From NCBI GenBank assembly GCA_000771265.1, contig JDUB01000011.1:1-64000 (forward strand): a DNA stretch of 64,000 nt, given 5' to 3'. Position 1 is the stretch's first letter. The number at the start of each line of letters is the position of its first letter. The position numbers were made by a program, and so were the translations under genes. The notes under the pieces are model-generated. The model had not been told where the DNA came from. It did no database searches and saw nothing but the letters and a program-made list of their open reading frames with translations. The stretch comes from Bifidobacterium thermophilum DSM 20210 (GTDB lineage: Bacteria; Actinomycetota; Actinomycetes; Actinomycetales; Bifidobacteriaceae). Of the stretch, positions 3,790-56,924 are shown one piece after another.

Positions 3790-3790
3790 A

Positions 3791-4756: not shown

Positions 4757-4848
4757 CCGGCTCGCTGCATCGCATCGAGACGTCTTGCAGATCGCCGGAG
4801 CGTACTGTCCGGCAGTTCATATGCAAACGTAACCATACCGCCGCGTGA

Positions 4849-8603
<3,755 letters not shown>

Positions 8604-37341: not shown

Positions 37342-37656
37342 GGGGGATTCCTTTCATCCGATTCCGCGCAATCTTTGCGCGAACAGCCGTCTCCATCGTA
37401 TCAGAAACTGAACAGAATGCCGGAATCCGGCCATTTTCAAGACACGCTTCCCAAAAGCTGAGAGCCGGCTATCGATTTTTGCGAACGCAACGCCACCACA
37501 CGAAAGCGTGCAGGTTGTTAGGGTCAAAGACAATCAACGCATTCACACTGGCTGCAGCCATCTGCGGTCACACAGCCATACCGCACTGCCGGATGCGGCG
37601 CGCACAACCGCGCCGCGACACCGGCACGCCGCATGTCCCATCCAAGGAGGTTCCGC
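37342..37656. other. Divergent region upstream of the hydroxy/keto acid cluster
   Basis: Promoters for the SPFH gene and for the 37.6-41.8 kb cluster should lie here. I see no clear -35/-10 pair, and no copy of the sulfur-type box found at 50394-50412. Confidence 0.35.
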
Positions 37657-38865: not shown

Positions 38866-38867
38866 CG

Positions 38868-40205
38868 ATGAGCACACCAACGACGACGGCAACCTTCGCT
38901 CACGACGAAGCAAATCCCGCACATCCAGATGGCCCCGCCAATCCAACCAAGCTCCCCGACCTCACCAGTCATACCGGGGAGATTCTTAGCCACCCGTCCC
39001 CCGACCGGGTCATTCCGCAGGCCATCGCGCATCTCGCCCCATCCGCGATTCGCGCCTTCGATGCGGAAGTCTCCCGGATTCCGGACATCATCAAGCTCAC
39101 ATTGGGTGAACCGGATTTCCCCACCCCGCAGTTCATCAAGCAGGCTGCCGTGCGCGCATTGGAAGCCAACCGCACCCACTACGCGCCAAACGCGGGAACC
39201 GAAGGCTTGCGAACAGCCATCAGCGCTTACCTCTCAAGGCGCCGCGGGTTTGACGTCCTTCCGGATCGCATCATTGTGACCACAGGGGCAAGCGAAGCCC
39301 TCAGCAGCACACTCGGCACACTCCTGGAAGCGCCGGGGGCAGAACTCATCGAGTTCACGCCGGCATTCGGTCAGTATGCGTCACTCGCCCGCATCCACGG
39401 GGCGAAACTCACTGCTATCGACACTGCCAGCAACGAGTTCCGACCTGATTCTGCAGCCCTTGACCGGGTACTCAGCCAGACCCGTGGGTCTGCGGTTGTT
39501 ATTCTCAATTCGCCGTCGAACCCGACAGGCACAGTCCTGAACGAAGATGAGCTACGCGATCTTGCGCGTGTCATCGACCGTCATGACGCCATCGTGGTCA
39601 GCGACGAAGTCTACGCGGAAATCAGTTTTGAAAACCGGCCGGCGCCTTCCATCGCCAAATTCATTCCGGAACGCACCGTCGTCATCGACAGTACTTCGAA
39701 AACCTACGCGATGACCGGCTGGCGCCTAGGCTGGCTCGCCGCGCCGGAATGGCTCGCACCGGCAATACTCAAGTACCATCAGCTCGCGGTCTCCTGCGCG
39801 GCCACGTTCAGCATGGACGCCGCTCAGGAAGCTTACAAACATGGGGACGACGCCATTGATGAGATGGTTGAGGAATACCGCCGTCGCCGGGACTTCCTTG
39901 CCGGGGCGCTCAACGCCGCCGGATACCGGACCGTAAACCCTCAAGGCGCGCTCTACCTTTACGTGAGAGCGCCTGAACGGTATGCCAACGGTCTGGAATT
40001 CGCCCGTGATCTTGCCGAACGTGCCAAAGTCGCCGCGATTCCCGGCACAGCCTTCGCCGCCGGCCCCTCACCATATGTGCGATTCAGCTATGCGGCAAGC
40101 CTGGACACCCTGCATCAGGCTGCGGACAGGATTCGCGCGTTCGCCGATAGGCAGGACAACAACCGCCAGACCGCTGACCCGACACACCGGTCCGTACACT
40201 CCTGA
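38868..40205 (+). CDS. Class I/II PLP aminotransferase
   Basis: The 445-residue enzyme follows aspartate/aromatic-type (fold I) aminotransferases: LTLGEPDFPTPQFIKQA, HYAPNAGTEGLRTAIS, the NSPSNPTG cofactor loop, VVSDEVYAEI, and STSKTYAMTGWRLGW with the PLP-binding Lys. About 60 N-terminal residues precede the family core. ATG 38868 has GAGGT five bases upstream and begins two bases after the dehydrogenase stop, so the pair is one operon; the in-frame ATG 38850 overlaps that gene. The keto acid partner is probably shared with the flanking dehydrogenases. Confidence 0.9.
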   Translation: MSTPTTTATFAHDEANPAHPDGPANPTKLPDLTSHTGEILSHPSPDRVIPQAIAHLAPSAIRAFDAEVSRIPDIIKLTLGEPDFPTPQFIKQAAVRALEANRTHYAPNAGTEGLRTAISAYLSRRRGFDVLPDRIIVTTGASEALSSTLGTLLEAPGAELIEFTPAFGQYASLARIHGAKLTAIDTASNEFRPDSAALDRVLSQTRGSAVVILNSPSNPTGTVLNEDELRDLARVIDRHDAIVVSDEVYAEISFENRPAPSIAKFIPERTVVIDSTSKTYAMTGWRLGWLAAPEWLAPAILKYHQLAVSCAATFSMDAAQEAYKHGDDAIDEMVEEYRRRRDFLAGALNAAGYRTVNPQGALYLYVRAPERYANGLEFARDLAERAKVAAIPGTAFAAGPSPYVRFSYAASLDTLHQAADRIRAFADRQDNNRQTADPTHRSVHS

Positions 40206-40271
40206 CCCGGCAATCGCCACACGGCAACACGCCACATTACGTACATATCAACCTCATACCGAAAGATCATC

Positions 40272-41279
40272 ATGACATCCATCGCTTTCTACCACACCCT
40301 GCCTGAAGAGCAGCCGTTTGCCGAACAGTGGGCCGAGGAGCACCACGTTGACGTCACCTGCTTCCCGTTCGAGCTGACCGATGAAACGCTGCATACCGTC
40401 GATGGCTTCGACGGAATCTCCTATAAACAACGCTTCCGTCCCAGCAACAACCCCGATTTCTATCGCAAGCTGCACGATGACTACGGTATACGCCAAATCG
40501 CGCTGCGCTCCGCCGGTATCGACTCCATCGACGTGAAAGCCGCCAACGAGCACGGTATCCGCATCACCAACGTCCCCTCATACTCCCCCAGCGCGGTCGC
40601 TCAGCTTGCACTCACCCACATCCTGCAACTGCTCAGACATATCCCCCAATACCGTGAGCGCAATACGCACCAGGATTTCGCAGCCACCGGTCTCATGTCC
40701 CGGGAACTGAGCGAATTGACGGTCGGTATCATCGGTGTCGGTCGCATCGGTTCGACACTCGCACGGATGCTCCACGCGCTCGGCGTGACCGTACTTGGCA
40801 ACGATATCCGCGAACGAAACGACCTTGACGGCATCGTCACCTTCACTAGCAAGGACGATCTGCTGGCACGAGCCGACGTGGTCAGCATGCACACGTACCT
40901 TGACGAGACCACCTACCATCTCATGGACGCGCACAGGTTCGCCCAGATGAAGCCGACGGCGATTTTCATCAATGCCTCGCGCGGACCCATCGTGGATACG
41001 CAGGCGTTGATTGACGCCCTGCAACGCCATGAAATCGCAGCAGCCGGGCTGGACGTGATCGAAGGCGAGGCGACACTGTTCGGGCATACGCTCAAACCGG
41101 GCGAGCCGACCGGGAATCCGGCGTATGACACGCTCGCCGCGATGCCGAACGTCGCCATCACCCCGCATATTGCGTTCTTCACCGACATCGCCGTACGCAA
41201 TATGGCCCAGCAGTCGCTCAACGACGCGCTCACCATCATTCAAGGCGGCACCAGCGAACACGAAATCCACCTCGACTGA
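40272..41279 (+). CDS. D-2-hydroxyacid dehydrogenase (D-lactate/D-hydroxyisocaproate type)
   Basis: A 335-residue NAD-dependent enzyme reducing 2-keto acids to D-2-hydroxy acids or the reverse. It has ALRSAGIDSIDVKAANEHGI, the cofactor loop VGIIGVGRIGSTLARML, NASRGPIVDTQALIDAL with the catalytic Arg, GLDVIEGEATLF with the Glu, and TPHIAFFTDIAVRNM with the His. The GLDVxEGE and PHIAFxT blocks place it with D-LDH and D-hydroxyisocaproate dehydrogenases rather than phosphoglycerate dehydrogenases. GAAAG precedes the ATG. It follows the aminotransferase after 66 bases. Confidence 0.92.
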   Translation: MTSIAFYHTLPEEQPFAEQWAEEHHVDVTCFPFELTDETLHTVDGFDGISYKQRFRPSNNPDFYRKLHDDYGIRQIALRSAGIDSIDVKAANEHGIRITNVPSYSPSAVAQLALTHILQLLRHIPQYRERNTHQDFAATGLMSRELSELTVGIIGVGRIGSTLARMLHALGVTVLGNDIRERNDLDGIVTFTSKDDLLARADVVSMHTYLDETTYHLMDAHRFAQMKPTAIFINASRGPIVDTQALIDALQRHEIAAAGLDVIEGEATLFGHTLKPGEPTGNPAYDTLAAMPNVAITPHIAFFTDIAVRNMAQQSLNDALTIIQGGTSEHEIHLD

Positions 41280-41344
41280 CCTTCAACACAACCCGGACAT
41301 ATACACGGGCAACATCCATATCCAGCAATGGGAAAGAGAGCACG

Positions 41345-41800
41345 ATGACCGACACCGCACATTCCAAGAACGACACAACATGGCGGATCCGCCGTATGAC
41401 ACCTGAAGACTACGACGACGCATACGCGCTGTGGGATCGCACGCCCGGCATGCATCTGCACTCGCTAAACAACACCTACGGGGGCATCGTGCGTTTACTT
41501 GATGCCAATCCCAACACCTGTCTGGTAGCGGTCGACGGGAATGACTCCATCGTCGCGACCGCCCTCGGGGCTACCGACGGGCGAAAAGGGTACCTGTACC
41601 ACATCGCCGTCGACGAGCAATGGCGCGGCCAAGGCATCGGCAGCACGCTCGTCCACCGTATCGAGGACGCGTTCCAAGCGGTCGGCATCGTCAAAGTCGG
41701 TATTCTCGTCGTCGCCGACAATGAGGACGGCAAGCGGTTCTGGAAACATCAGGGCTGGAAGACACGTCCGGACGTGGTGTATTTCGACCACGATCTGTGA
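41345..41800 (+). CDS. GNAT-family N-acetyltransferase
   Basis: The 151-residue protein has the acetyl-CoA site HIAVDEQWRGQGIGSTLVHRI (V/I-x-x-x-x-RGQGIG) and a C-terminal YFDHDL strand. N-terminal IRRMTPEDYDDAYALWDRT is typical. Its acceptor is unknown; because it ends the keto/hydroxy acid cluster and precedes metNIQ, an amino acid acceptor is a reasonable guess. AAAGAGAG precedes the ATG. Confidence 0.88.
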   Translation: MTDTAHSKNDTTWRIRRMTPEDYDDAYALWDRTPGMHLHSLNNTYGGIVRLLDANPNTCLVAVDGNDSIVATALGATDGRKGYLYHIAVDEQWRGQGIGSTLVHRIEDAFQAVGIVKVGILVVADNEDGKRFWKHQGWKTRPDVVYFDHDL

Positions 41801-41853
41801 GCTGAGCAACCCGCAAGCAACCAGTGGCACAACTGCTCATCCGCGAACGCTTC

Positions 41854-41903
41854 AGGAAAGGGTGGCGATTACCGACAACTGCCGGGGTTCGCCACCCTTT
41901 CCT
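41854..41903 (+). terminator. Terminator hairpin after the GNAT gene
   Basis: AGGAAAGGGTGGCGA (41854-41868) pairs perfectly with TCGCCACCCTTTCCT (41889-41903), followed by TGTCTGT. It separates the cluster from metNIQ. Direct repeats of GTGGCACAA (41824 and 41909) flank it. Confidence 0.8.
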
Positions 41904-42044
41904 TGTCTGTGGCACAAGTTCATTATCCGTGTCCCTCGGCGTGCCACGTGATATGCCCGCGATAACCACCGTTGATATCCCTCAGTTACTTACTGCCGCA
42001 CCACACTGTAACCGGCGATAACCGACACCGATAGCAAACCCGCG

Positions 42045-42065
42045 ATTGGCCTGCGATGAGCCAAT
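42045..42065 (+). promoter_or_regulatory. Inverted repeat ATTGGC-N9-GCCAAT upstream of metN
   Basis: ATTGGC (42045-42050) and GCCAAT (42060-42065) flank nine bases and overlap a possible -10 (AATAGACT). It may be an operator for metNIQ. It does not resemble the box shared by the NitT/TauT importer and gamma-synthase promoters. Confidence 0.35.
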
Positions 42066-42164
42066 AGACTCGCAGCAATACATCATCAACAGCGCCACAG
42101 CAATGCAACACCACAGCACTGCCAGTGCCGTGACGCTCTCCACCAAGCCGCGAAGGAGGTACCC

Positions 42165-43298
42165 GTGGGCAACGCGATCATCGAAATCACCCAACTGAGC
42201 AAACGCTATGACACCCCCGAAGGCGCATACACCGCACTGCATGACGTCAACCTGAGCATCGAAGAAGGAACGATTTTCGGAATCATCGGACTGAGCGGAG
42301 CCGGAAAATCAACGCTCGTCAGATGCATCAACGGACTTGAACCCATCTCCGGTGGGACAGTCAACGTGCTCGGCCAATCCGTCCCTGACCTGCCAGCCAA
42401 GCAGCTGCGGCAACTGCGCAAATCCATCGGCATGGTCTTTCAGCAGTACAATCTCATGCCATCACGCACTGTGGAAGGCAATGTGGCACTTGCCTTGCGC
42501 CATTCGGGGCTCAGCTCCGCGGAAAAGCGCGACAAGACACGCAAACTGCTCAGCCTGGTCGGACTCGAGCAGCACGCCGAATCCCACCCATCACAACTGT
42601 CCGGAGGACAGCAGCAGCGAGTCGCCATCGCCCGCGCGCTCGCCAACAACCCGCGTATCCTGCTGCTTGACGAGGCGACCAGCGCACTCGACCCGGACAC
42701 CACCAAAACGATTCTCAAACTTGTCAAACGGCTGAATCGTGAGCTGCATCTGACTATCATCGTCGTCACCCACCAGATGGATGTCGTCAAATCCATCTGC
42801 TCGCATGTCGCCGTCATCGATCACGGGACCATCGTCGAACAGGGTGAAGCCTTTGACGTATTCGCCAATCCACAAGCCGAACTCACCCGTCGTTTCGTCG
42901 GCGACTACACCGGGCTCAACCATGTCATCGAAACCCTACGCTCGCAGGGCACGACGGCGGGGATTGACCCAAACGGCCAGCTTATCCACATGAGCTACGC
43001 GAACAAGACCGTCGCCGAAGGCCTGGTCTCCGCGGTCACCGAACGATTCCACGTCATCGTCAACATCCTGTTCGCATCGCTGGATATCGTCGATGGCTAT
43101 CCGCTCGGCAGCATCGTCGCCCAATATTCCGGCGATCCGGAACATATCCGCCAGGCTCTGGACTACTTGCGAGACAAAGGAATACGCATCACCGTCGTCC
43201 AAACCGATAGCGAAGAGAACACCGTCGAGAGCGCAGCCACAACCACGGATGCAGCCTCAAACACAACAGCATCCACCCCGAAGGAGCATATCGCATGA
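42165..43298 (+). CDS. metN: Methionine ABC transporter ATP-binding protein MetN
   Basis: MetN powers import of L- and D-methionine and derivatives. The 377-residue protein has Walker A GLSGAGKST (42-50), the LSGGQQQRVAIARAL signature, LLLDEATSALD Walker B, and a C-terminal NIL domain (from ~residue 265, ending with the ACT-like IRITVVQ strand), the regulatory methionine-binding domain typical of MetN. The last ~35 residues are Thr/Ala-rich. Start is GTG 42165 with AAGGAGG. The stop overlaps metI by ATGA. Confidence 0.93.
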   Translation: MGNAIIEITQLSKRYDTPEGAYTALHDVNLSIEEGTIFGIIGLSGAGKSTLVRCINGLEPISGGTVNVLGQSVPDLPAKQLRQLRKSIGMVFQQYNLMPSRTVEGNVALALRHSGLSSAEKRDKTRKLLSLVGLEQHAESHPSQLSGGQQQRVAIARALANNPRILLLDEATSALDPDTTKTILKLVKRLNRELHLTIIVVTHQMDVVKSICSHVAVIDHGTIVEQGEAFDVFANPQAELTRRFVGDYTGLNHVIETLRSQGTTAGIDPNGQLIHMSYANKTVAEGLVSAVTERFHVIVNILFASLDIVDGYPLGSIVAQYSGDPEHIRQALDYLRDKGIRITVVQTDSEENTVESAATTTDAASNTTASTPKEHIA

Positions 43299-43972
43299 CC
43301 ATATTCGAGCAATTGTTCCCACACGTTTTCGAAAATCCGGATGTCTTCGTCCAATCCATTCTCGAAACCCTGCAGATGTTCCTCATTGCGACCCCGGAAT
43401 GGTTCATTCTCGGCATCGTCTTCGGACTGACGCTCGCACTGACCAAGCCCGGCGGCATGTGGGAGAACCGGGCGGTCTTCCAGTTTCTCGACAAGCTGAC
43501 GAATCTGTGCCGATCCATCCCGTTCGTCATCATGATCGCGCTGCTGTTCCCACTGACCCGGCTGATCAGCGGCACTGCGATCGGCGTCAGGGGCGCGATT
43601 TTCCCGCTCATCGTCGGCATCACCCCATTCTTCTCCAGACAAGTCGAATCCGTGTTCAACGGGCTCAACCCCATGCTCATCGAGTCCGCGCAGGCGATGG
43701 GACTCGGGCCGTGGTCGATCATCTGGAGCATCTACCTGCGTGAGAGTATCTCCGCACTCGCACGGGTTACCACCATCACCTGCATTAGCTTCAACTCCGA
43801 AATCGCCGTCATCGGCGCAATCGGGGCGGGAGGGCTCGGCGACTACGCCAACCGGTATGGATTCGAGCGCAATCAGCTCGACATCACCGTCGCCGCCGTC
43901 ATCACGCTGCTGGTCTTCATCACCATCATCCAGACCATCGGCACCATCATAGGGAGGAAGAATGAACACTGA
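43295..43972 (+). CDS. metI: Methionine ABC transporter permease MetI
   Basis: The 225-residue membrane protein has five hydrophobic segments and the permease coupling loop ESAQAMGLGPWSIIWSIYLRE (near 130-150). AIGAGGLGDYANRYGFER is a MetI hallmark. AAGGAG precedes the ATG inside metN. It overlaps metQ by 11 bases. Confidence 0.93.
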   Translation: MTIFEQLFPHVFENPDVFVQSILETLQMFLIATPEWFILGIVFGLTLALTKPGGMWENRAVFQFLDKLTNLCRSIPFVIMIALLFPLTRLISGTAIGVRGAIFPLIVGITPFFSRQVESVFNGLNPMLIESAQAMGLGPWSIIWSIYLRESISALARVTTITCISFNSEIAVIGAIGAGGLGDYANRYGFERNQLDITVAAVITLLVFITIIQTIGTIIGRKNEH

Positions 43973-44828
43973 ACACCGTATCCGCCGCAAGGCAATCGCC
44001 GCGATTCTCGCTGTAGTCTCCGCTGCTGGCCTGGTCGTTTCCACAAGTGCTTGCGGATCGTCGTCCGCGGGCACCACGACCGTCAAAGTCGCGTTGACCA
44101 CCGCCACCGATGAACCACTGTGGAAGCTGGTCAACCAGAATCTTGAAAAAGCCGGATCGAAAGTCCGCGTGAAGACCGTGGCCATGAAAAGCGCGGTGCT
44201 CGGCAATCAAGCCCTTTCCTCGGGCGACGTGGATCTGAGCGCCCAGCAGCATTATGCCTTCCTCAACGGTGAAATCAAAGAGAAAAAATACAAGTTCACG
44301 GTGATTGGCGAATCATATATCAGCCCGCTAAATATCTATTCGAATTCCATCAAGAAGATCTCACAGCTGAAGAAGGGCGACAAGGTGCTCATTCCCAATG
44401 ACGTCACCAATGGCGGCAGGGCGCTTATTGTGCTCCAGGAAGCGGGAGTGATCAAGATTGACCCGAAGAAGAACGATCCGGCGAATGGTGTGTATCCTGC
44501 CGAGGAAGATATCACATCGAACCCGAAGAACATCCAAATCGTACCCACCGACCGCAACCTGATCATGAGCTCACTGGATGACGCGGCCGCGGGCATCGCG
44601 AACGCGAACGCCGTCGTGGATTACGGCAAGAGCATCAGTGACGCGATTTTCGCTGTGAATCCGGATCCGAAGAAAACGGTCAACAAGCCGTGGATCAACG
44701 TAATCGTCGCCCGGACCGCTGACAAGGACAACGCGAATTACAAGGCGATTATCAAGGCCTACCAGCAGGCGAACGTGCGGTCTTATATGAAGAAGGACTC
44801 CAAGGGAGCTGAAATCCCGGTGTGGTGA
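43962..44828 (+). CDS. metQ: Methionine-binding lipoprotein MetQ (NlpA family)
   Basis: The 288-residue lipoprotein has a signal ending in lipobox STSAC (Cys31), then the NlpA fold: the VKVALTTATDEPLWK start, SGDVDLSAQQHYAFLN, and VLIPNDVTNGGRALIVLQEAGVIK. The DVDLSAQQH motif is the methionine-pocket region (often NxDVNxFQH). GGGAGG lies before the ATG. Completing metN-metI-metQ, it captures the ligand outside the membrane. Confidence 0.93.
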   Translation: MNTEHRIRRKAIAAILAVVSAAGLVVSTSACGSSSAGTTTVKVALTTATDEPLWKLVNQNLEKAGSKVRVKTVAMKSAVLGNQALSSGDVDLSAQQHYAFLNGEIKEKKYKFTVIGESYISPLNIYSNSIKKISQLKKGDKVLIPNDVTNGGRALIVLQEAGVIKIDPKKNDPANGVYPAEEDITSNPKNIQIVPTDRNLIMSSLDDAAAGIANANAVVDYGKSISDAIFAVNPDPKKTVNKPWINVIVARTADKDNANYKAIIKAYQQANVRSYMKKDSKGAEIPVW

Positions 44829-45255: not shown

Positions 45256-45687
45256 TCAGTGGTGGCAGCAATCACCGTCCATATCCATCGATGATGACGA
45301 GGACGACGGTGACGGGGAAGCAGAAGTATCAGACGACGTGCCGGCGGAAGTCCCTTGGTCGTTGCCATTGCCGCTGTCTGTGTTGCTGTCCATCGTCATA
45401 TCGTCCATCGAGTTGCCCGAAGTATCAGCCGCGTCATCGGAATCCGAGGAATCCGCAGAATCGGTGGTATCGCCCGAGCCATGCGCATTCTTCGTGGTCG
45501 ACTGGCTCGTCGAACCACCCGCATTCCTGTCCACGATGACGGCGCTATCCGCAGAACCGCAGCCTGCTGCAACCGCCAGTGCCATCACGCACACCACCGA
45601 TGCGAGCGCCCGCGTCGCCCATCTGAGCCCGACTGCACGCGGCTTCTGTGACATCGCCCGCTGTCGCATTCCCGATACTGTTCCCAT
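45256..45687 (-). CDS. Small Ser/Asp-rich lipoprotein with Met/Cys/His-rich C-terminus
   Basis: A 143-residue lipoprotein with a signal (about 24-42) and lipobox VAAGC (Cys43). The mature part is almost entirely Ser, Asp, Thr and Gly, with two patches of possible metal ligands: SMDDMTMDS in the middle and MDMDGDCCHH as the last ten residues. The clustering of Met, Asp, Cys-Cys and His-His suggests copper, zinc or another soft metal, but this is inference. ATG 45687 has GGAGAAG upstream; ATG 45699 and ATG 45654 are alternatives. It lies just after the M20 gene of the NitT/TauT-type importer, separated by a hairpin. Confidence 0.65.
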   Translation of the reverse strand: MGTVSGMRQRAMSQKPRAVGLRWATRALASVVCVMALAVAAGCGSADSAVIVDRNAGGSTSQSTTKNAHGSGDTTDSADSSDSDDAADTSGNSMDDMTMDSNTDSGNGNDQGTSAGTSSDTSASPSPSSSSSSMDMDGDCCHH

Positions 45688-45741
45688 ATTCTTCTCCATT
45701 CCCTATTCAATCCCATTCATTCTCATGACAACACGCGCACC

Positions 45742-45771
45742 CGCACATGCCATCGACACCACGCATGTGCG
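45742..45771 (-). terminator. Hairpin between the M20 gene and the small lipoprotein
   Basis: CGCACATGC (45742-45750) pairs perfectly with GCATGTGCG (45763-45771), just downstream of the M20 stop on the minus strand. It may partly end the importer transcript. Confidence 0.5.
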
Positions 45772-45783
45772 CACACAAGCCGG

Positions 45784-47127
45784 CTAGAACGTGGTGATGA
45801 ACCGCCGCAGCACGTCCTGCCCGAACTTGAGGGCATCAACCGGCACATGCTCATCGACACCATGGAAATTCCCGATGACATCGAATCCCTGCGGCACCCG
45901 CAACGGGATGAACCCGCACACTTCGATATCCGGATTGATCTTCAACACCGCCTTGCTATCCGTACCGCCCGACGACAGGAACGGCACGATCACGGCGTCT
46001 GGATCGACTTGGCTCAGCGTACGCTCAATCGCCGTGAACAGCTCGCCATGCACATCCGTGACATAGCCGCGGCTTCGATGAATCTTTTCCACACTCACTT
46101 CAGGACCTGCGAGTTCATGCAAGCGTTCCAGCAGCGTGTCCTCCTGCCCTGGCAACGCCCTGCCGTCAATCAGTGCGCTCGCCTTCGCCGGAACGATATT
46201 GACTGTGCTGTCTGCATCAATTGATGTGACGTTGAACGTGTTGCGCACCGAGGAAGCGACCCACGGCTTGGCCGGACCGGTCCGGTCGATGAGTGCTGCC
46301 GTGTCGTATTTCGCCTGTTGTCCTTCCTCTTGACGGACGATATCTTGCAGACGATTCACCAGCAATTGCCCGACTTGCCCGGCATCAGCAGGCCAAGAAT
46401 AGTCGGCGATCCGGGCGGCAGCTTTCGCGATCTTCACCACCGCATTGTCCCTGTTAATCTGCGAACCGTGCGATTGGGTTCCTTGCGCGTTGAGCCGGAA
46501 CCATTGCGTGCCTTTCTCACCTGCCTGCACGTAATAGACGCGGCGCCCATCCACGTATCCGCCAAATCCGCCGGTTTCGCTGATGATGGCACCGACGTGA
46601 TCAAACCATTCGGGATGATGCTGCGCAATCCATTCGGATCCTTTGAATCCTCCGGCCTCCTCATCAGCGAACAGGATGAAACGCACCGACCGATGCGGCT
46701 TTCCTCCGGAACGCAGAATCGCGCGCAACGCAGCCAATGACATGCCGACCATATCCTTCATATCGATGGCGCCGCGCCCCCAGACGCATTCGACTCCATC
46801 GGCATCCGGGTGAATGTCTCCCCCGAGTGGATCGACGCTCCAGTCCTCGAGACGCGCAGGCACCGTATCCAAATGCCCATGAATCAACAAGACTGGCAGA
46901 TCAGGGTTTTCTCCCGGAATATCCGCAATGAGATTCGTGCGTCCGGGGGCACTGTCCACCAGCGTGGAACGGATGCCCACTTCTGCGAGTCGGTCCGCGA
47001 CCCATTGCGCGGCTTCAGTTTCGCGCGCCCGGTTGTCGCCTGCGTTCTGCGTGTCGAACTGAATCAGCCGCGAAGTGAATTCCACTGCCTCCAGTTGTGC
47101 TTGAATGTCTGTCGCGTCCTCGGCCAT
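45784..47127 (-). CDS. M20-family metallo-peptidase/deacylase
   Basis: A 447-residue dinuclear zinc hydrolase. It has LLIHGHLDTVP (His85, Asp87), GRGAIDMKD (Asp122, bridging), ADEEAGG (Glu156 general base, Glu157 ligand), and the C-terminal GNFHGVDEHVP with the last ligand His. The middle carries the M20 dimerisation domain. Members remove amino acids from dipeptides or deacylate N-acyl amino acids; YlmB of thiamine salvage is one. AAGGAGG sits six bases before ATG 47127, and the gene begins one base after the importer ATPase. Cotranscription suggests it processes the imported compound. Confidence 0.9.
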   Translation of the reverse strand: MAEDATDIQAQLEAVEFTSRLIQFDTQNAGDNRARETEAAQWVADRLAEVGIRSTLVDSAPGRTNLIADIPGENPDLPVLLIHGHLDTVPARLEDWSVDPLGGDIHPDADGVECVWGRGAIDMKDMVGMSLAALRAILRSGGKPHRSVRFILFADEEAGGFKGSEWIAQHHPEWFDHVGAIISETGGFGGYVDGRRVYYVQAGEKGTQWFRLNAQGTQSHGSQINRDNAVVKIAKAAARIADYSWPADAGQVGQLLVNRLQDIVRQEEGQQAKYDTAALIDRTGPAKPWVASSVRNTFNVTSIDADSTVNIVPAKASALIDGRALPGQEDTLLERLHELAGPEVSVEKIHRSRGYVTDVHGELFTAIERTLSQVDPDAVIVPFLSSGGTDSKAVLKINPDIEVCGFIPLRVPQGFDVIGNFHGVDEHVPVDALKFGQDVLRRFITTF

Positions 47128-47128
47128 A

Positions 47129-48031
47129 TCAATCCTCCTTGTCCGCTGGTGTCTCGTTTGCCAACAGTTCCTGCGCGTCCCCCACAAAGGCATCCCCCGC
47201 GTGCTCCTCATGCGCATCAAAATGCAGTTTCGTCAGCAATTGCTTGCGGTAGGCGGCGAATTCGTCGGACACACGATCTCTCGCATCAAGATTGATTGGC
47301 ACGATTTCCTTAATCCGCCCCGGTCGAGGTGTCATGATTACCACGCGGCTGCCAAGATAAATCGCCTCGTCCACGTCATGCGTCACCAAAATCATCGTCA
47401 TGTGGTACTGCTCCCAGATATCGAGCAGCCGGTCCTGCAAATCCGCGCGGGTGAACGAATCCAATGCACCCATCGGCTCATCAAGCAACAGCACATCGGG
47501 ATGGTCGATCAGCGCACGAACAATCGCCACACGTTGGGCCATGCCGCCGGAAATCTGATGCGGATACGCCTGCTCGAAACCATGCAAACCGACCATCTCG
47601 ATATACCGGGCAACATCGGCCTTATGCTCCTTATAAATGCCCTGTGCTTTCAGGCCGAACGCGATATTCTCTTCCACGGTCAGCCACGGAAACAGGCTTC
47701 CCTGCTGGAACACATAGCCCCGCTTGGGATTCGACCCCTCAATCGGTTCACCAGCAAGGCTCAAGGTTCCGCTCTGCGGATGGTCAAGCCCCGCGATAAG
47801 GCGAAGCAGCGTAGTCTTTCCACACCCGGACGGCCCGATAATCGACACAAGCTCGCCCGGATAGATGGACAGGCTGACATCCGACAGTGCATGAACGACA
47901 CTTCCATCAGGAGCCGTGAATTCACGGGACACATGCTCAATGGACAGCTCAGGATTTACACCTGCGGGCACATCCGCCAGTGTCTGCCTGCCACTTGCGA
48001 CGGCGAGATGGTCAAGTTCAGTGTCGCTCAT
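47129..48031 (-). CDS. NitT/TauT-type ABC transporter ATP-binding protein
   Basis: A 300-residue ATPase with Walker A GPSGCGKTT, VFQQGSLFPWLTVEENIAFGL (Q loop and helical region typical of TauB/SsuB/NrtD), signature ISGGMAQRVAIVRAL, and Walker B LLLDEPMGALD. It carries a ~40-residue N-terminal extension and a ~40-residue acidic C-terminus. AGAAAGGA precedes ATG 48031. The ATG overlaps the permease stop by four bases. The substrate class cannot be told from the ATPase. Confidence 0.9.
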   Translation of the reverse strand: MSDTELDHLAVASGRQTLADVPAGVNPELSIEHVSREFTAPDGSVVHALSDVSLSIYPGELVSIIGPSGCGKTTLLRLIAGLDHPQSGTLSLAGEPIEGSNPKRGYVFQQGSLFPWLTVEENIAFGLKAQGIYKEHKADVARYIEMVGLHGFEQAYPHQISGGMAQRVAIVRALIDHPDVLLLDEPMGALDSFTRADLQDRLLDIWEQYHMTMILVTHDVDEAIYLGSRVVIMTPRPGRIKEIVPINLDARDRVSDEFAAYRKQLLTKLHFDAHEEHAGDAFVGDAQELLANETPADKED

Positions 48032-49131
48032 CGTACGAGTCCTTTCTGCCAACGCAGCACACGGCCGCGAACCACTTCGATGATCTTCATGATCAGCGAG
48101 AACAGGATTGCCATCACCACAATCGCCGCGAGAATCTTGTAATAGGAGGACCATGCCTTCGCCTGGTCGATGTAATAGCCCAAGCCACCGGGCTGCCCCA
48201 TCATCTCGGAAATCACCAAGGTCAAGAACGACAGGCTGTTCGCCATGCCGATACCGGTGAAAATGCTCGGCGTCGCATTTGGAATGGCCACATGGAACAG
48301 GATGTACGGAGTGGATGCGCCGAGCGTACGGGCGGCTTCAACCAGCATTTTCGGCGTTCCCTTGATGCCTTGTGCGGTCAGGAACGCAACAGGGAACCAC
48401 GAGGCGATGACCAGCAGGAACACGGCTGCGGCGAAAGGCGTAGGCATCAGCGTCAATGCGAACGGCATCCATGCGACCGGCGGGATGACACCGGTGATTT
48501 TCAACACCGGAAACACCCAATAATACGCCTTGTCGAACCAGCCGATCAGCACGCCGGTAACCACGCCGAGCACCACGCCGACAATGAATCCGGCGATGAA
48601 CAGACGTGTCGAATACAAGGTGTTGAGCACGATATACCCGCCATCGGTGACAAATGCCTCCATCACCTTCGCGGGACCCGGGAAGAACGGCTGTGGCAGC
48701 GTCTGCAATTTGGTGCCTGCGATATCCCACAAGGCGAGCGCCACGCCCATCGCGAAGCGGAACGGCGCCCGGCTGCGATAGTACTCGCGTTTGTCAGCCG
48801 CATGCAGATCAACGATGCCGGCAATCGCATAGACAACAGCCAGATTGACCAGCAGCGCGCGGTAGGCTTCCTGCCCGGTGAGCAAGAAAATCCACAACTG
48901 CCCTTGCGGGAAGCTCACGTGGGCGATTTGCGGGAAGGACAGACTCACCAACTCGGCGATGATGAAACCTGCGACGGTGAACACGATGGTCATCGGATAC
49001 GGCACGGTGGCAATGCGTGGATTTTCCGCGGATCGACGCCGCGTGCCGTGTGCATCCGCAGCCTCGCGTGTCGTCAGTCGGGTCGCCCGTACTGCCGGTG
49101 GCACAGTCAGGTCTGTTATCAAACTACTCAT
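48028..49131 (-). CDS. NitT/TauT-type ABC permease with extra N-terminal membrane segments
   Basis: The C-terminal ~250 residues are a TauC/SsuC-type permease with the coupling loop EAARTLGASTPYILFHVAIPN and SLSFLTLVISEM. The protein is 367 residues, about 100 longer than usual; the extra N-terminal part includes two or three membrane segments (about 45-125) and a basic loop. AAGGAAAG precedes the ATG. It lies 107 bases after the binding-protein gene, with a hairpin between. Confidence 0.9.
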   Translation of the reverse strand: MSSLITDLTVPPAVRATRLTTREAADAHGTRRRSAENPRIATVPYPMTIVFTVAGFIIAELVSLSFPQIAHVSFPQGQLWIFLLTGQEAYRALLVNLAVVYAIAGIVDLHAADKREYYRSRAPFRFAMGVALALWDIAGTKLQTLPQPFFPGPAKVMEAFVTDGGYIVLNTLYSTRLFIAGFIVGVVLGVVTGVLIGWFDKAYYWVFPVLKITGVIPPVAWMPFALTLMPTPFAAAVFLLVIASWFPVAFLTAQGIKGTPKMLVEAARTLGASTPYILFHVAIPNATPSIFTGIGMANSLSFLTLVISEMMGQPGGLGYYIDQAKAWSSYYKILAAIVVMAILFSLIMKIIEVVRGRVLRWQKGLVR

Positions 49132-49198
49132 GGGTCTTCTTTCCTTGCATGATTGAGCATGCGAACCGGTTTGTCCTGGGAACTTCCGGGGCCGGCGA

Positions 49199-49230
49199 CG
49201 CGGCCGACCTCCTTACGGGGGTCGGCCTGC
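49199..49230 (-). terminator. Intra-operon hairpin after the binding-protein gene
   Basis: GGCCGACC (49202-49209) and GGTCGGCC (49220-49227) form a strong stem just past the binding-protein stop. There is no U-tract, so it probably raises binding-protein mRNA over permease mRNA rather than stopping all transcription. Confidence 0.55.
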
Positions 49231-49238
49231 GCCTAGGT

Positions 49239-50288
49239 TTACAGGTCGATCTTCTGGTAGATCGTGTCCGCCAGCTTGGTGGTGTCGTTGGTCTTAAGGA
49301 AGCCGATGTTCTTGAGCTGATCAGTGAAATACTGCACATCGCTCTTGATCGCCGCATCCTCGTTATCCTGGACCTTGTAGTCGTAGTCCTTGAACAGCTT
49401 GGTGGCGAGCGAGACATCGGTAATCGAGGAGTATTTCTTCTCGGCGATGATTTTCGCCGCCTGCTGCGGATGCGCCGCGATATAGTTGCGGGCCTTATTC
49501 AACGCGCGCAGGATGGCAGCCATCTCCTCGGGCTTCTCCTTGATGATCTTGTTCGAGCCGTACAGGAAGCAGCAGAAGTGCTTGGCGAAAGTCGGGTCGG
49601 AACCGAGGTCGAAGATGATGTCGACCGTGCCCTTCTGTTCCTCGACGGTAGGCAGCGGATCCCACAATGCCGCTGCATCGATATCGCCGTTCTGCAACGC
49701 CTGGAATTCCAAGCTCGAATCGTCATATGGCAGATAGGTCACATCACTGTTGTTCTTGTCGACGTTGAGACCCGCCTGGCCGAGCCACATATTCGCTGCC
49801 ATGTACGGGGTGCCACCGATTTCGTCGACACCGATTTTCTTGCCTTTCAGATCCTTCGCGGTCTTGATGCTGGACCCCTTCTTCACGGCAATCTTGATGC
49901 AGCCCTTATGCAGTGCGCCCACCACACTGGCGGACACGCCTTCCTCAATCGATGGGAAGAACTGGAAATCGCCGTTCGTGACCGGGAAGCGCCCGGAGTT
50001 CAGGCCGACCTTGCGGGTTTCCGCATCGGCGGTCACCAATTTCGCGTTGATGCCTTCGGCCTTGAAATACCCGAGTTCCAAGGCGATGGCGATCGGCGAG
50101 CTGCACAGCGAGCTCGACTTCGGGAACTCGATGGTCCCGTACTTGTACGTAGTGCTTATGGTTTTCGAGTCGCCGCTTGCCGACGACGACCCGGACGTCT
50201 TGACACTGCATGCGTCAAAGGCGAATACGGCGATCAACGTGCATAGGATCGCCGCGCCTTTGACGACGCGTCCGTGGATGTTCAACAT
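49239..50288 (-). CDS. NitT/TauT-type (NMT1/SsuA-like) substrate-binding lipoprotein
   Basis: A 349-residue exported binding protein. The signal ends at Cys27 in the unusual lipobox FDAC. The mature part follows COG0715: SPIAIALELGYFKAEGINAKL, the NGDFQFFPSIEEG pocket, DLKGKKIGVDEIGGTPY and AALWDPLPTVEEQ. HFCCFLYGS in the C-terminal lobe carries a Cys pair. The ligand may be a sulfonate, a sulfur compound or a pyrimidine; the promoter it shares with the gamma-synthase gene favours sulfur. CAAGGAGA precedes ATG 50288. It is the first gene of the importer operon. Confidence 0.88.
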   Translation of the reverse strand: MLNIHGRVVKGAAILCTLIAVFAFDACSVKTSGSSSASGDSKTISTTYKYGTIEFPKSSSLCSSPIAIALELGYFKAEGINAKLVTADAETRKVGLNSGRFPVTNGDFQFFPSIEEGVSASVVGALHKGCIKIAVKKGSSIKTAKDLKGKKIGVDEIGGTPYMAANMWLGQAGLNVDKNNSDVTYLPYDDSSLEFQALQNGDIDAAALWDPLPTVEEQKGTVDIIFDLGSDPTFAKHFCCFLYGSNKIIKEKPEEMAAILRALNKARNYIAAHPQQAAKIIAEKKYSSITDVSLATKLFKDYDYKVQDNEDAAIKSDVQYFTDQLKNIGFLKTNDTTKLADTIYQKIDL

Positions 50289-50629: not shown

Positions 50630-52069
50630 ATGGGAAACATCAATGAAATCACCGATAATCCCACTTTGGCAGGCGACGGCGTCGCAGGCGGTGAGGGACG
50701 CGAAGAGAGTGAAGGAGATGAAGGATTCGCCACCCGGCAGCTGCATGCCGGCTATGACGCCCCTCGGCATCTGGATTCCAGTTCAGTGCCAATCTACGCA
50801 ACCGCGGGATACGACCTGCACAATGCAGCCCGCGGATCGCGTGCGGCCAACGGTTTGGAACCGGGCGCGCACCTGTACTCCAGGGTGGGCAACCCCACAC
50901 CGGAAGTCCTTGAGGGGCGTCTTGCCTCGCTGGACGGCGGGGTCGCCGCCGTAGCCTTCTCCTCCGGTATGGCGGCCATCAGTTCCACGATCCTCAATCT
51001 CGCCGACCACGGTGGACGAATCGTCTCAACCCGCGACCTGTACGGCGGCACCTTCGATTTCATCAACAATCTGCTCCCCGCGCTCGGTGTAGGAGTGGAT
51101 TATGTGGATACAGTCGATGACGAACAGCAGCTTGAAGCGGCAATCGGCCCCGACACCCGCCTTGTCTTCCTGGAAAGCGTGTCGAACCCGACCACGCGGA
51201 TTACCGATCTCGATCTGGTCGCCCGCGTCGCTCATCGGCACGGTGTCGCCGTCGTCGTGGACAACACCCTACCCACGCCATACCTGTTCAGACCAATCGA
51301 GCATGGCGCGGATATTGTCGTCTATTCCACCACGAAAGCAATCAATGGGCATGGCAATGCCGTAGGCGGTGCGGTAGTGGATGCTGGGAAACTCGACTAC
51401 GGGCCGGATAACCATGTCGATGACGAGGAACGCTTCCCCCAGGGAAGCGTGGAACCACGCTACCCGCAGTTCAACTCCTTCGTGCATAACATCAGCGATG
51501 AAGCGCACGGGCAGCGCCGAAGCTTCGTGGATGCCTACGGACGCAAGGCGTTCATCCAACGGCTACGGCTGAAATACCTGCGGCTGCTCGGTGCCGAGCC
51601 CGGCCCGTTCGAAAGCTATCTGACCTTGCAAGGCTTGGAAACGCTTGATGTCAGGCTCGACCGGGCGGTGTCAAACACCCTCACCATCGCACGTTTCCTT
51701 GATGCGCATCCGCACGTCACGCGCGTAGATTACGCCGGTTTGCCGAACTCACCCGACCATGCGCTCGCGGAACGTGATTATCCGCGCGGCGTCGGTACAG
51801 TGCTCGCCTTCACACTCGAAGGTGGTGTCGAACAGGCGAACGCATTTATTGACGCGACGCAGGTGTTCACGTATCTGACAAATATCGGGGATTCCAAGTC
51901 GTTGATTGTCGATCCTGCGCGAACCACCCACCGCGAGTTCAACGCGGATCAACAGCGCGCCATCGGTGTGGAACCAACCACAATCCGCCTGTCCATCGGA
52001 TTGGAAGACTCCCGAGATCTCATCGCCGACCTGGAACGTGGATTCCGGGCGGCGTATGGGCAGGCGTGA
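50630..52069 (+). CDS. O-acetylhomoserine sulfhydrylase-like PLP enzyme (MetY type)
   Basis: A 479-residue Cys/Met-metabolism PLP enzyme. It has FATRQLHAGYDAP, YSRVGNPTPEVLEGRLASLDGG, AFSSGMAAISS, VVVDNTLPTPYLFRPIEHGADIV, and YSTTKAINGHG with PLP Lys236. The long chain and the FNSFVHNISD insertion match MetY-type O-acetyl-homoserine sulfhydrylases, which make homocysteine from sulfide (or methionine from methanethiol), rather than the ~390-residue gamma-synthases. A ~30-residue acidic N-terminus precedes the core. AAGGAG sets ATG 50630. It is divergent from the importer operon. Confidence 0.87.
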   Translation: MGNINEITDNPTLAGDGVAGGEGREESEGDEGFATRQLHAGYDAPRHLDSSSVPIYATAGYDLHNAARGSRAANGLEPGAHLYSRVGNPTPEVLEGRLASLDGGVAAVAFSSGMAAISSTILNLADHGGRIVSTRDLYGGTFDFINNLLPALGVGVDYVDTVDDEQQLEAAIGPDTRLVFLESVSNPTTRITDLDLVARVAHRHGVAVVVDNTLPTPYLFRPIEHGADIVVYSTTKAINGHGNAVGGAVVDAGKLDYGPDNHVDDEERFPQGSVEPRYPQFNSFVHNISDEAHGQRRSFVDAYGRKAFIQRLRLKYLRLLGAEPGPFESYLTLQGLETLDVRLDRAVSNTLTIARFLDAHPHVTRVDYAGLPNSPDHALAERDYPRGVGTVLAFTLEGGVEQANAFIDATQVFTYLTNIGDSKSLIVDPARTTHREFNADQQRAIGVEPTTIRLSIGLEDSRDLIADLERGFRAAYGQA

Positions 52070-52278: not shown

Positions 52279-53031
52279 ATGAGCACAACCGAACCACAGG
52301 AAGACCTGTACGCCGGCTATGACACCGTCCTCGACGACACGCAACGACTGCGCCCCAACATCTACGAATCCCGGCTGCGACTACTGCACAAAGCCCTGAC
52401 CACCACGCCCGACGGCGAGGACGCCGACCCTGGGGCCATCCTGTCCATCGGCGTGGGCAGCGGGATCTTCGAAACCCTGCTCGCCGAACGCTATGGCATT
52501 CGCGTCAGACAAGCTATTGAACCATCACCTGCGCTCGGGGCGCAGGCACGCGCGAAAGGCCTCGACATCGTCGCCACGACCGCACAGGAATTCGATTACA
52601 GTCAAGCGCCGTACGACACCATCGTGTACAACGGCTCATCATTCGGATTCATCCCAGATGATGAGATCATCCCCACATTCCGGCGCAATCGCGAAGCACT
52701 CGCGCCGAATGGGCGGATTGTGCTTACCGATGTGCCAGCGGAATCGGCGCTCGGCATCGTGCTGCGTCTGCGTCAGGCCGCAGGATTGGACGATTCGCTC
52801 GTCAAGCCGTTGCTGGAGGGCACAGCATTCTTCAATGTGGACACGCATATCTACAAGCCATACTGGCATGAAATCCCCTGGTATGACAAGGCTCTGCGCG
52901 CGGCTGGATTCTCCCGCATATCCCACTGGCAGACATTGCTGGAGAACCTGCCGTACCACAATGATGAACCACATGATCCGGTACCCGGTTATCAGAGCGG
53001 CAACTATGTCGCTATTATCGCCGAGGCATGA
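52279..53031 (+). CDS. Class I SAM-dependent methyltransferase
   Basis: The 250-residue protein has the SAM-binding motif I AILSIGVGSGIFETLLAERYG (near 53-73), an acidic end of strand 2 (AIEPSPALG), and motif IV-like PYDTIVYNGSSFGFIPD. I do not recognise the acceptor. It stands immediately upstream of a SAM synthetase, so it may use or recycle SAM. GGAGAGAG precedes the ATG after a G-poor leader. Confidence 0.8.
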   Translation: MSTTEPQEDLYAGYDTVLDDTQRLRPNIYESRLRLLHKALTTTPDGEDADPGAILSIGVGSGIFETLLAERYGIRVRQAIEPSPALGAQARAKGLDIVATTAQEFDYSQAPYDTIVYNGSSFGFIPDDEIIPTFRRNREALAPNGRIVLTDVPAESALGIVLRLRQAAGLDDSLVKPLLEGTAFFNVDTHIYKPYWHEIPWYDKALRAAGFSRISHWQTLLENLPYHNDEPHDPVPGYQSGNYVAIIAEA

Positions 53032-53205: not shown

Positions 53206-54393
53206 ATGGCACGATTCTTCTCCTCGGAAGCAGTGACCGAAGGCCACCCAGACAAAGTCTGCGACATCATCTCCGATTCCATCCTCGATGCATATCTCAC
53301 GCTGGACCCGGATTCCCGTGTCGCCGTCGAAACCACCGCAAAAGACGGGCTCGTCGTCGTCGAAGGCGAAGTAAGCGTCCCGCGCGTCCTCGACCATGTG
53401 GCCATCGTGCGCCAGGCACTGCACGATATCGGCTACACCACAGCGGAATCCGGCATTGACCCGGATGGTTGCGGCATCATCAACAACATCCGGCCACGCG
53501 TGTTCGACAATCCGCAAGGCGACTACGGTGACACCGACAAAATCGCTGACAAGGAAACCGCATACGACACCTTCGGCGGCGACCAAGGCATCATGATCGG
53601 GTACGCGAACGATGATACGGACGCGCTCATGCCACTGCCCGCATACGCGTCCAACCGAATCGCCGAACGGCTCGCGTGGGTGCGTAAGAACGGCGTTATT
53701 CCTCAGCTCAGGCCGGACGGCAAAGTGCTCGTCACCGTGGAATACACCGACGATCTGCGACCGGTCGCCTTCCGGCATGTGCTGATTTCGACCCAGCATT
53801 CGCCTGAGATCTCTGTAGAAGAGGTGCGCCGCCAAGTGCGCGAACAGGTACTCGACCCCGTGCTCAAAACCTTCCCGAATATCGCGGCGGATGACATCGA
53901 CGTCGTCATCAACGCCTCGCCGTTCCACACCGGCGGGCCGAAAGCCGATTCGGGACTGACTGGGCGCAAAATCATCGTGGATACGTACGGCGGGTTCGCC
54001 GCTCACGGCGGCGGCGCGTTCTCCGGCAAGGACCCGCGCAAGCCCGACCGTTCCGCGGCATACGCGGCACGCTGGGTGGCCAAAACCATCGTGGCCGCAG
54101 GACTTGCGCGGCGCGTGCAGGTTTCGCTCGGATACTTCCGCAATGTCGCCGCTCCGGTCAACATCGACGTGGAAACTTACGGAACCGAGACCGTTGCGCG
54201 CGAAGCGATCCAGAAGGCTGTGGAGCAGGTGTTCGATTTGCGTCAGCTCGCCATCATCGACGAGCTGAACCTGCGCCGACCAATCTACCGTAAAACCGCA
54301 GCATACGGGCATTTCGGTCGGACTGGCGAGGAATTCACCTGGGAACGCACCGATAAGGCGGACGCGCTGCGGGATGCCGTGCTGGCGAAGTAG
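53206..54393 (+). CDS. metK: S-adenosylmethionine synthetase MetK
   Basis: MetK makes SAM from methionine and ATP. The 395-residue protein has SSEAVTEGHPDKVCD (ATP and metal residues), GGDQGIMIGYA, GLTGRKIIVDTYGGFAAHGGG and FSGKDPRKPDRSAAYAARWV, all catalytic blocks. One normally strict loop differs: most MetK read INPTGRFVxGGPxGDAGLTG, here INASPFHTGGPKADSG, and the C-terminal third is divergent, so this may be a second MetK. GAAAGGAA sets ATG 53206 after a G-poor leader. It follows the methyltransferase by 174 bases. Confidence 0.93.
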   Translation: MARFFSSEAVTEGHPDKVCDIISDSILDAYLTLDPDSRVAVETTAKDGLVVVEGEVSVPRVLDHVAIVRQALHDIGYTTAESGIDPDGCGIINNIRPRVFDNPQGDYGDTDKIADKETAYDTFGGDQGIMIGYANDDTDALMPLPAYASNRIAERLAWVRKNGVIPQLRPDGKVLVTVEYTDDLRPVAFRHVLISTQHSPEISVEEVRRQVREQVLDPVLKTFPNIAADDIDVVINASPFHTGGPKADSGLTGRKIIVDTYGGFAAHGGGAFSGKDPRKPDRSAAYAARWVAKTIVAAGLARRVQVSLGYFRNVAAPVNIDVETYGTETVAREAIQKAVEQVFDLRQLAIIDELNLRRPIYRKTAAYGHFGRTGEEFTWERTDKADALRDAVLAK

Positions 54394-55706: not shown

Positions 55707-56924
55707 CTACCGCGCCACCTGCACGAACTGAGGCTGTGCCGCCTTCGCCGCGACCGCAAACGCCTGGTCGAGGTCCTCGATAAGGTCGTTCACGTCTTCG
55801 ATGCCGATGGACAGGCGGATGAGCTCGTCGGTGATGCCGACTTTGAGGCGCTCCTCGCGTGGTAGTTCGAAATGCGTCATGCGACACGGCAGTTCGGCGA
55901 GGCTTTCGACCGCTCCGAGGCTGACGGCGAGCCGGAACAGGTGCAGGTTGTCGAGGATTTCCGCCGGGTCGATGCCTTTGACGACTTCGAAGCTGAGCAC
56001 GCCGCCGAAGCCTTTGAGCCCCTTCTCGGTGTCGCCGGGCTGGCGACCGCCTTCGACGCCCGGATAGTGGACGGTCGCGACGAGCGGGTTCTCCAGCAGC
56101 CAGTTCGCGATGGCGACGGCGTTGCTCTGCTGGCGTTCGATGCGCAGGCCGAGCGTCTGGATACCACGACGCACTGAGTCGGATTCAGCCGGCGGTAGGA
56201 TGCCTCCCAGCCGGTTCTGCGCATAGTACACACGCTCGCCCAGCTTGTCGTCACGCACGACGGCGAGACCGGCGATGACATCCGAATGCCCTGCCAGATA
56301 CTTGGTCGCCGAATGCAGGACGATATCCGCCCCCAGATCCAGCGGCTGCTGCAGATACGGGGTCACGAAGGTGTTGTCCACAATCACGATGGCACCGTAC
56401 TTGTGGGCGATGCGCGCGATTGCGGCGACATCGTTGACTTGCAGCAGCGGGTTGGTCAGGGTTTCGAAGTAGACGGCCTTGGCGGGTTCACTGGCACCGT
56501 CCTCGTCACCGGCGACGCCGACGCCGCTGATCGCCGCCTCGAGCGCCTCGTAATCATTGGTGTCCACGGGCTGGCTGACCAATCCCCAACGGGTGAAATG
56601 CTCGTTGAACTGCGAGTAGGTGCCGCCGTAAACGTTGCTGCCGACGACGATCCGGTCGCCCGGCTTGAAAATCGAAAGAACCGCGTGGATGGCGGCGAGC
56701 CCGGACGCGAACGCGAAACCGCGAGTGCCGTGTTCGAGCTGCGCAATCTGGCGCTCAAGGAAGTCACGGGTCGGGTTGCCGCTGCGCGCGTAATCCCAGC
56801 GGGGCATGGACTCGACCGATTCGAAAGCATACGTGGATGAGTTGTAGATAGGCGGATTCACGGCTCCGGTCGTGTTATCGTTCACCGGCAGTCCGTGGAC
56901 CAGCTGAGTGTTGAACCTCGTCAT
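55707..56924 (-). CDS. Cystathionine gamma-synthase/lyase
   Basis: A 405-residue transsulfuration PLP enzyme. It has FNTQLVHG, YARSGNPTRDFLERQIAQLEHG, AFASGLAAIHAV, VIVDNTFVTPYLQQPLDLGADIV, HSATKYLAGHSD with PLP Lys208, and SLGAVESLAELPCRMTH. Gamma-synthase and gamma-lyase activities cannot be separated by eye. A small insertion (residues ~135-148, Gly/Asp/Ala-rich) is unusual. GGGGGT precedes ATG 56924. Its leader contains a 60-nt stretch with only A and C, and its promoter matches the importer's. Confidence 0.9.
   Translation of the reverse strand: MTRFNTQLVHGLPVNDNTTGAVNPPIYNSSTYAFESVESMPRWDYARSGNPTRDFLERQIAQLEHGTRGFAFASGLAAIHAVLSIFKPGDRIVVGSNVYGGTYSQFNEHFTRWGLVSQPVDTNDYEALEAAISGVGVAGDEDGASEPAKAVYFETLTNPLLQVNDVAAIARIAHKYGAIVIVDNTFVTPYLQQPLDLGADIVLHSATKYLAGHSDVIAGLAVVRDDKLGERVYYAQNRLGGILPPAESDSVRRGIQTLGLRIERQQSNAVAIANWLLENPLVATVHYPGVEGGRQPGDTEKGLKGFGGVLSFEVVKGIDPAEILDNLHLFRLAVSLGAVESLAELPCRMTHFELPREERLKVGITDELIRLSIGIEDVNDLIEDLDQAFAVAAKAAQPQFVQVAR

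Follow-up and report, generated by a model that had tools for sequence, protein, structure and literature searches.

A 64,000-nucleotide stretch of Bifidobacterium thermophilum DSM 20210 (contig JDUB01000011.1, positions 1 to 64,000; hereafter the window) carries on its minus strand, at 45256–50288, an operon for an ATP-binding cassette (ABC) importer and an M20 metallo-hydrolase (Table 1). We put at about even odds (roughly 0.5) the reading that this operon serves for uptake within an accessory methionine and S-adenosylmethionine (SAM) island of Bifidobacterium, with the importer taking up a sulfur compound and the M20 enzyme freeing methionine. Gene content, family membership, the conserved island, co-occurrence and a four-cysteine signature in the binding protein were established directly; the fold of that protein is a prediction. 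In the proposed route, the cysteines of the binding protein, or sites close to them, would hold the captured sulfur compound, probably a thiol or a molecule derived from one, and a bound metal might mediate the contact; import would then be the work of the permease and ATPase. The sulfur would then reach homocysteine and methionine through a sulfhydrylase-like enzyme and a cystathionine-type enzyme, both dependent on pyridoxal phosphate (PLP), and a second SAM synthetase (MetK2) would convert methionine to SAM for one or more partner methyltransferases. For the M20 hydrolase, the likeliest substrates are N-acylated methionine and short peptides containing it (or the equivalent forms of another sulfur amino acid), from which the free amino acid would be released. 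What we observed is which genes are present and how they are linked; ligand, M20 substrate and methyl acceptor are inferences.

Many bifidobacteria are limited by their supply of sulfur (the consulted part of a growth survey reports widespread cysteine auxotrophy in the genus; PMC4656816), and the locus provides an importer candidate whose binding protein has an unusual set of four cysteines. Genes for a second SAM synthetase and a methyltransferase accompany the importer, and the identity of the importer's ligand would tell the purpose of this extra SAM branch; MetK2 may be the more rewarding lead. The open-licence literature searched yielded no description of this importer. Each component is of a known type; as far as that literature shows, what is new is the binding-protein subfamily with four cysteines, the link between it and MetK2, and an M20 gene within a MetNIQ operon in one genome (G070; genomes and loci are cited below by G and L numbers).

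Linkage of the importer to a second SAM synthetase

The binding protein was found at an identity of at least 68% in 10 of 112 Bifidobacterium genomes, and the remaining listed matches reached at most 35%. Besides this genome, the carriers are B. boum (the closest named genome found, with a binding protein 97% identical), B. vespertilionis, B. aerophilum, B. subtile, B. felsineum, B. cebidarum, B. colobi, B. reuteri and one uncultured genome. An extra MetK copy (at least 61% identity) was present in all 10 importer carriers versus 4 of the 102 other genomes (G030, G060, G070 and G096; hypergeometric 1.8 × 10−11, common descent ignored). The usual MetK, matched in 110 of the 112 genomes, is 52–59% identical to MetK2. 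MetK2 passes the methionine adenosyltransferase model TIGR01034 (442.8 versus 309.4 bits; the housekeeping copy scores 562.2). In all eight aligned MetK2 copies the housekeeping QSxEINQG segment is replaced, and the GAGDQG segment is one residue shorter and reads FGGDQG; in MetK these segments are located at the active site and in the loop that gates it. The alterations possibly reflect a changed substrate.

The methyltransferase gene was matched in 9 of the 10 carriers (E 1e-30), the G097 contig ending inside it, and seven carriers have a second methyltransferase. Cystathionine-type genes occur in most carrier islands, and the island gene order is conserved in relatives. The PLP enzyme gene divergent from the importer (50630–52069) had been called a gamma-synthase in a first-pass annotation of the window. 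Its best match is instead O-acetylhomoserine sulfhydrylase (TIGR01326; 451.4 bits, under the cut-off of 495.1), and a cystathionine lyase/synthase-like gene sits at 55707–56924. The sulfhydrylase-like gene is unspecific, 105 of the 112 genomes having a match at E 1e-80. The same annotation had this gene share a promoter with the importer operon, a divergent layout that we found here and in B. boum; in the other eight carriers PLP gene and importer are transcribed towards each other. According to the portion consulted of a report on B. longum, that species makes methionine from O-acetylhomoserine both via cystathionine and via direct sulfhydrylation (PMC11540073).

The same genes could also be read as a dedicated methionine-analogue pathway: after import of an uncommon thiol, selenol or metal-thiolate by the four-cysteine protein, O-acetylhomoserine would be joined to it by the sulfhydrylase-like enzyme, MetK2 would turn the product into a SAM analogue, and the methyltransferases would draw on that analogue as their group donor instead of SAM. 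We regard this as a long shot. Further pairs of a methyltransferase and an extra SAM synthetase gene were seen at L151–L155 (in G096, G030, G070, G060 and G111, respectively), with the importer not beside them; some lie near MetQ, MetN or a sulfhydrylase-like gene.

The binding protein and its four cysteines

The binding protein passes the gathering score of the NMT1/THI5-like family PF09084 (73.1 versus 20.5 bits); its best NCBIfam match is SsuA_fam (TIGR01728), below the curated cut-off (116.9 versus 163.5 bits). The predicted structure (mean pLDDT 80) has an SsuA/ThiY-like fold, scoring Z 25–27 against CmpA, SsuA, NrtA, ThiY and a thiamin-binding protein (CmpA, 26.6; SsuA, 26.1; ThiY 3ix1, 25.2; thiamin-bound 4nmy, 25.1; SsuA structures overall, 21–26). 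Four cysteines (C62, C130, C239 and C240) are invariant in 16 of 16 aligned family members; the 19 binding proteins aligned had been picked by hand. Seven of the 16, from Gordonibacter and related Coriobacteria, share only 24–28% identity. Among 48 other relatives (distinct non-family sequences kept from loci up to L059), a cysteine occupies the four columns in 1, 0, 2 and 2 cases, respectively; in 41 of them no cysteine falls within two positions of any column, and in 7 one lies near C239/C240. In one of the 48 (L032), three or more of the columns have a cysteine within two positions. The distant four-cysteine importers lie at seven loci (L089–L095; Gordonibacter and other Coriobacteria), and at L089, L090, L092 and L094 a MacB-like permease gene is found downstream.

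The importer might carry a soft metal or metalloid, with the cysteines binding iron, copper, arsenic, selenium or a metal-thiolate and with the methyltransferases and a small lipoprotein ending in CCHH handling it; we consider this unlikely. In the alignment with THI5, C239-C240-F241 falls on the CCCFC motif, which is reported, in the part of the source consulted, to bind iron (PMC10512395); the protein reads FCCFL there, with two cysteines only, and does not have the motif. The CCHH end of the lipoprotein is found both here and in B. boum, whereas the fetched islands of the other carriers showed no lipoprotein homologue at 1e-5. NCBIfam matches also include the Sec-assisted organometallic (SAO) system: SaoX (NF040735) is second best for the binding protein, and SaoP and SaoA are best for the permease and ATPase. 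The system is named for organometallics in the section of its description consulted (PMC13188914), which we count in favour of a metal ligand; all three scores miss their cut-offs (64.6 versus 300, 93.7 versus 295 and 250.9 versus 360 bits), and the annotated island genes are of methionine type, with no known metal-resistance gene among them. SAO membership of the importer was rejected on these cut-offs, and no selenoprotein partner was found among the annotated neighbours. Likeness to the THI5/NMT1 hydroxymethylpyrimidine (HMP) synthase lies in the fold and the aligned CCF; the protein studied here is a secreted-type lipoprotein encoded with an ABC permease and ATPase, and has two of the motif's four cysteines.

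The M20 hydrolase and its partners

The M20 protein passes the curated cut-off of the PRK07906 subfamily (NF005913; 495.2 versus 382 bits), and residues H85, D87, D122, E156, E157, E184 and H422, presumably the metal ligands and catalytic glutamate, are invariant in 10 of 10 orthologues. Orthologues (E at most 1e-80) were found in 10 of the 112 genomes, 9 of them inside the methionine/SAM island; 8 of the genomes also carry the binding protein (4 × 10−9 for this overlap, shared ancestry ignored). The gene follows the ATPase gene directly in only 2 of the 10 carriers, this genome and B. boum. In G003, G021, G024, G032 and G068, the sulfhydrylase-like gene, which converges with the importer, comes between importer and M20, and M20 adjoins a SAM synthetase gene. 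Fragmentary G097 has the same order, with permease, ATPase and M20 genes on one contig and the binding protein gene on another. G099 and G111 have the importer without an M20 orthologue. Conversely, G070 lacks the importer and has the M20 gene within metN-M20-metI-metQ (L122: 4091–8080), and G009, also without the importer, has it ahead of genes for an ABC transporter of oligopeptide type and for another M20 protein, this one of amidohydrolase type (L121: 9059–17620). M20 adjoins an importer in three arrangements, namely this operon, MetNIQ in G070 and the oligopeptide-type transporter in G009, and the importer and M20 are no fixed pair.

These distributions bear on the proposal of the first-pass annotation that importer and M20 together form a salvage system. 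Its sulfur context gains from the conserved methionine/SAM island; a single dedicated unit on the ThiXYZ-YlmB plan does not fit adjacency in 2 of 10 carriers, absence of M20 from 2 of 10 and M20 alone in two genomes. The narrower version, in which importer and M20 strictly take up and deacylate an N-acylated cysteine or methionine derivative, is rather unlikely: the one-base spacing of the ATPase and M20 genes here, the presence of both genes in 8 of 10 carriers and an island GNAT gene that could make the acyl form speak for it, and the rarity of adjacency together with the mismatches in G099, G111, G070 and G009 speaks against it.

M20 probably belongs at least as much with a second module and MetNIQ as with the importer. 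This module, which encodes an Ldh_2-type dehydrogenase, an aminotransferase, a hydroxyacid dehydrogenase and a GNAT acetyltransferase, is retained in G003, G014, G021, G024, G032, G068 and G070, and MetNIQ lies near the island in this genome, G003, G014 and G068 (stretches read). The whole run from 37633 to 44828 looks like a set for interconverting methionine with hydroxy, keto or acetyl forms. The aminotransferase occurs in 10 of the 112 genomes, 8 of which have M20. In the three island genomes in which M20 and importer disagree, M20 tracks the aminotransferase (both in G070; neither in G099 or G111), the other three module genes having been looked for in these genomes only within fetched stretches; G097 is too fragmentary for judging agreement between M20 and aminotransferase.

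Alternatively, M20 might be a housekeeping peptidase of actinomycetes that stands beside the importer by accident, which we also think unlikely. Its position varies between Bifidobacterium genomes, and a PRK07906-type M20 was matched in 31 of 31 genomes listed as of the same order or class in a 346-genome sample, with none of that order or class among the 20 of 285 non-matching genomes listed. Against an accidental position, the orthologue is found in only 10 of the 112 Bifidobacterium genomes, 9 times in the island, and its overlap with the binding-protein carriers is that given above.

Several results weigh against reading the operon as the uptake arm of the island. The M20 subfamily is ordinary and widespread in the class without this importer, as the 31 of 31 matches illustrate. 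Judged by counts, neither the importer nor the aminotransferase is the better partner of M20 (8 of 10 each); the aminotransferase also occurs in G005 and G010, where M20 is missing, and G009 has M20 by its oligopeptide-type transporter with neither aminotransferase nor extra MetK. All co-occurrence counts and hypergeometric tests ignore common descent. The comparison with the structures of ThiY and SsuA that had been suggested earlier found both similar (Z 25.2 and 26.1) and did not discriminate between ligand classes, which are unrankable from the fold because the Z values of CmpA, SsuA, NrtA, ThiY and the thiamin binder are too close. Four of the seven Coriobacterial loci (L089, L090, L091 and L093) have a gene for a BioB-like radical SAM protein upstream of the importer, and none of the genes for O-acetylhomoserine sulfhydrylase, MetK, methyltransferase or M20 was reported among the open reading frames (ORFs) of the seven; with this neighbour and none of the searched methionine genes, the ligand class there may differ. 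Finally, among the three carriers that the growth survey covers, B. boum alone is on its list of bifidobacteria able to grow without cysteine, in the part consulted (PMC4656816); B. subtile and B. reuteri, carriers named in its strain table, are off that list, and we do not use the phenotype as support.

Known salvage systems and operon layout

The first-pass annotation had kept a thiamine ligand as an alternative, which found no support. Control by a thiamine pyrophosphate (TPP) riboswitch is typical of ThiXYZ-YlmB salvage; the window scan gave no match at the importer operon, its only TPP riboswitch match (3696–3804) lying ahead of thi genes ~37 kb away. The ORFs behind that riboswitch (3696–8603) are, we assume, thiM, a fused thiE-thiC and a thiD-like gene. 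TenA is no more frequent in carriers (6 of 10, this genome included) than in the others (70 of 102; P = 0.72); of the carriers, G003, G068, G097 (82% complete) and G111 lack a match, with 76 genomes matching overall. Salvage of formylaminopyrimidine, a thiamine breakdown product, is highly improbable. It would agree with the NMT1/THI5 superfamily, with an NMT1-type importer beside an M20 hydrolase, with a fold near ThiY and the thiamin-bound structure and with TenA in this genome; SsuA and CmpA score equally high in fold, the conserved neighbours are methionine/SAM genes and the M20 gene is unfixed. The thiamine reading is disfavoured, weakened as the sulfur reading is strengthened.

Another importer with an M20 deacylase, YxeMNO-YxeP, salvages N-acetylated cysteine derivatives. 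YxeP-type N-acetyl-cysteine-derivative deacetylases are M20D/TIGR01891 members, and TIGR01891 was not among the 25 of 46 matching families listed for the M20 protein here. Both importer family and M20 subfamily (PRK07906 here) presumably differ between the two systems, and no monooxygenase partner was found among the annotated neighbours of the locus. That absence also separates it from SsuABC/TauABC (TIGR01728), which it resembles in component families, fold and the SsuA_fam best match; the sub-cut-off score, the four conserved cysteines and the longer permease are further differences.

The operon is transcribed in the order binding protein, permease, ATPase, M20 and small lipoprotein-like ORF. 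The permease and ATPase genes share four bases (48028–48031), and between the ATPase stop and the M20 ATG (47127) there is a single base (47128). These coordinates bear out the gene set and order described in the first-pass annotation, with M20 one base past the ATPase; the span given there, with its start at 45256, also takes in the small lipoprotein-like ORF (45256–45699), which was unnamed. The extra N-terminal membrane segments noted for the permease are upheld: its BPD_transp_1 domain begins only at residue 185 (Pfam), and a hydropathy scan places segments near residues 40–58 and 89–107, with counterparts in two family members.

Table 1 Features of the importer operon and the surrounding island (window positions).
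Feature	Position	Strand	Family or remark
Solute-binding lipoprotein gene	49239–50288	−	NMT1/SsuA superfamily; invariant C62, C130, C239, C240
Intergenic gap, binding protein/permease	49132–49238	−	Predicted RNA stem
ABC permease gene	48028–49131	−	BPD_transp_1; additional N-terminal membrane segments
ABC ATPase gene	47129–48031	−	ABC_tran
M20 metallo-hydrolase gene	45784–47127	−	Peptidase_M20; PRK07906 subfamily
Small lipoprotein-like ORF	45256–45699	−	C-terminal end MDMDGDCCHH
O-acetylhomoserine sulfhydrylase-like PLP enzyme	50630–52069	+	Divergent from binding protein gene
SAM-dependent methyltransferase (MT)	52279–53031	+	Family match
Second, diverged SAM synthetase (MetK2)	53212–54393	+	TIGR01034
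Cystathionine lyase/synthase-like PLP enzyme	55707–56924	−	Family match
MetN-MetI-MetQ methionine importer	42165–44828	+	Family matches
Ldh_2-type dehydrogenase, class I aminotransferase, D-2-hydroxyacid dehydrogenase, GNAT acetyltransferase	37633–41800	+	Family matches

The gap between the binding protein and permease genes is predicted to form a strong RNA stem (z −4.0; 1 of 200 shuffles equally stable) with no T run after it; such a modelled stem may set the relative expression of the two genes. Scans for promoters and terminators found nothing beyond the level of shuffled sequences, and the region 5′ of the binding protein gene, aligned from ten genomes and inspected by eye, with no motif program, had no obvious common motif. 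The small lipoprotein-like ORF is rich in serine and aspartate. Its only clear homologue among the 112 genomes is in B. boum (E 8.6e-30), likewise behind M20, the rest being at 1.6e-5 or weaker. The tail MDGDCCHH is conserved in B. boum despite an overall identity of ~41–51%.

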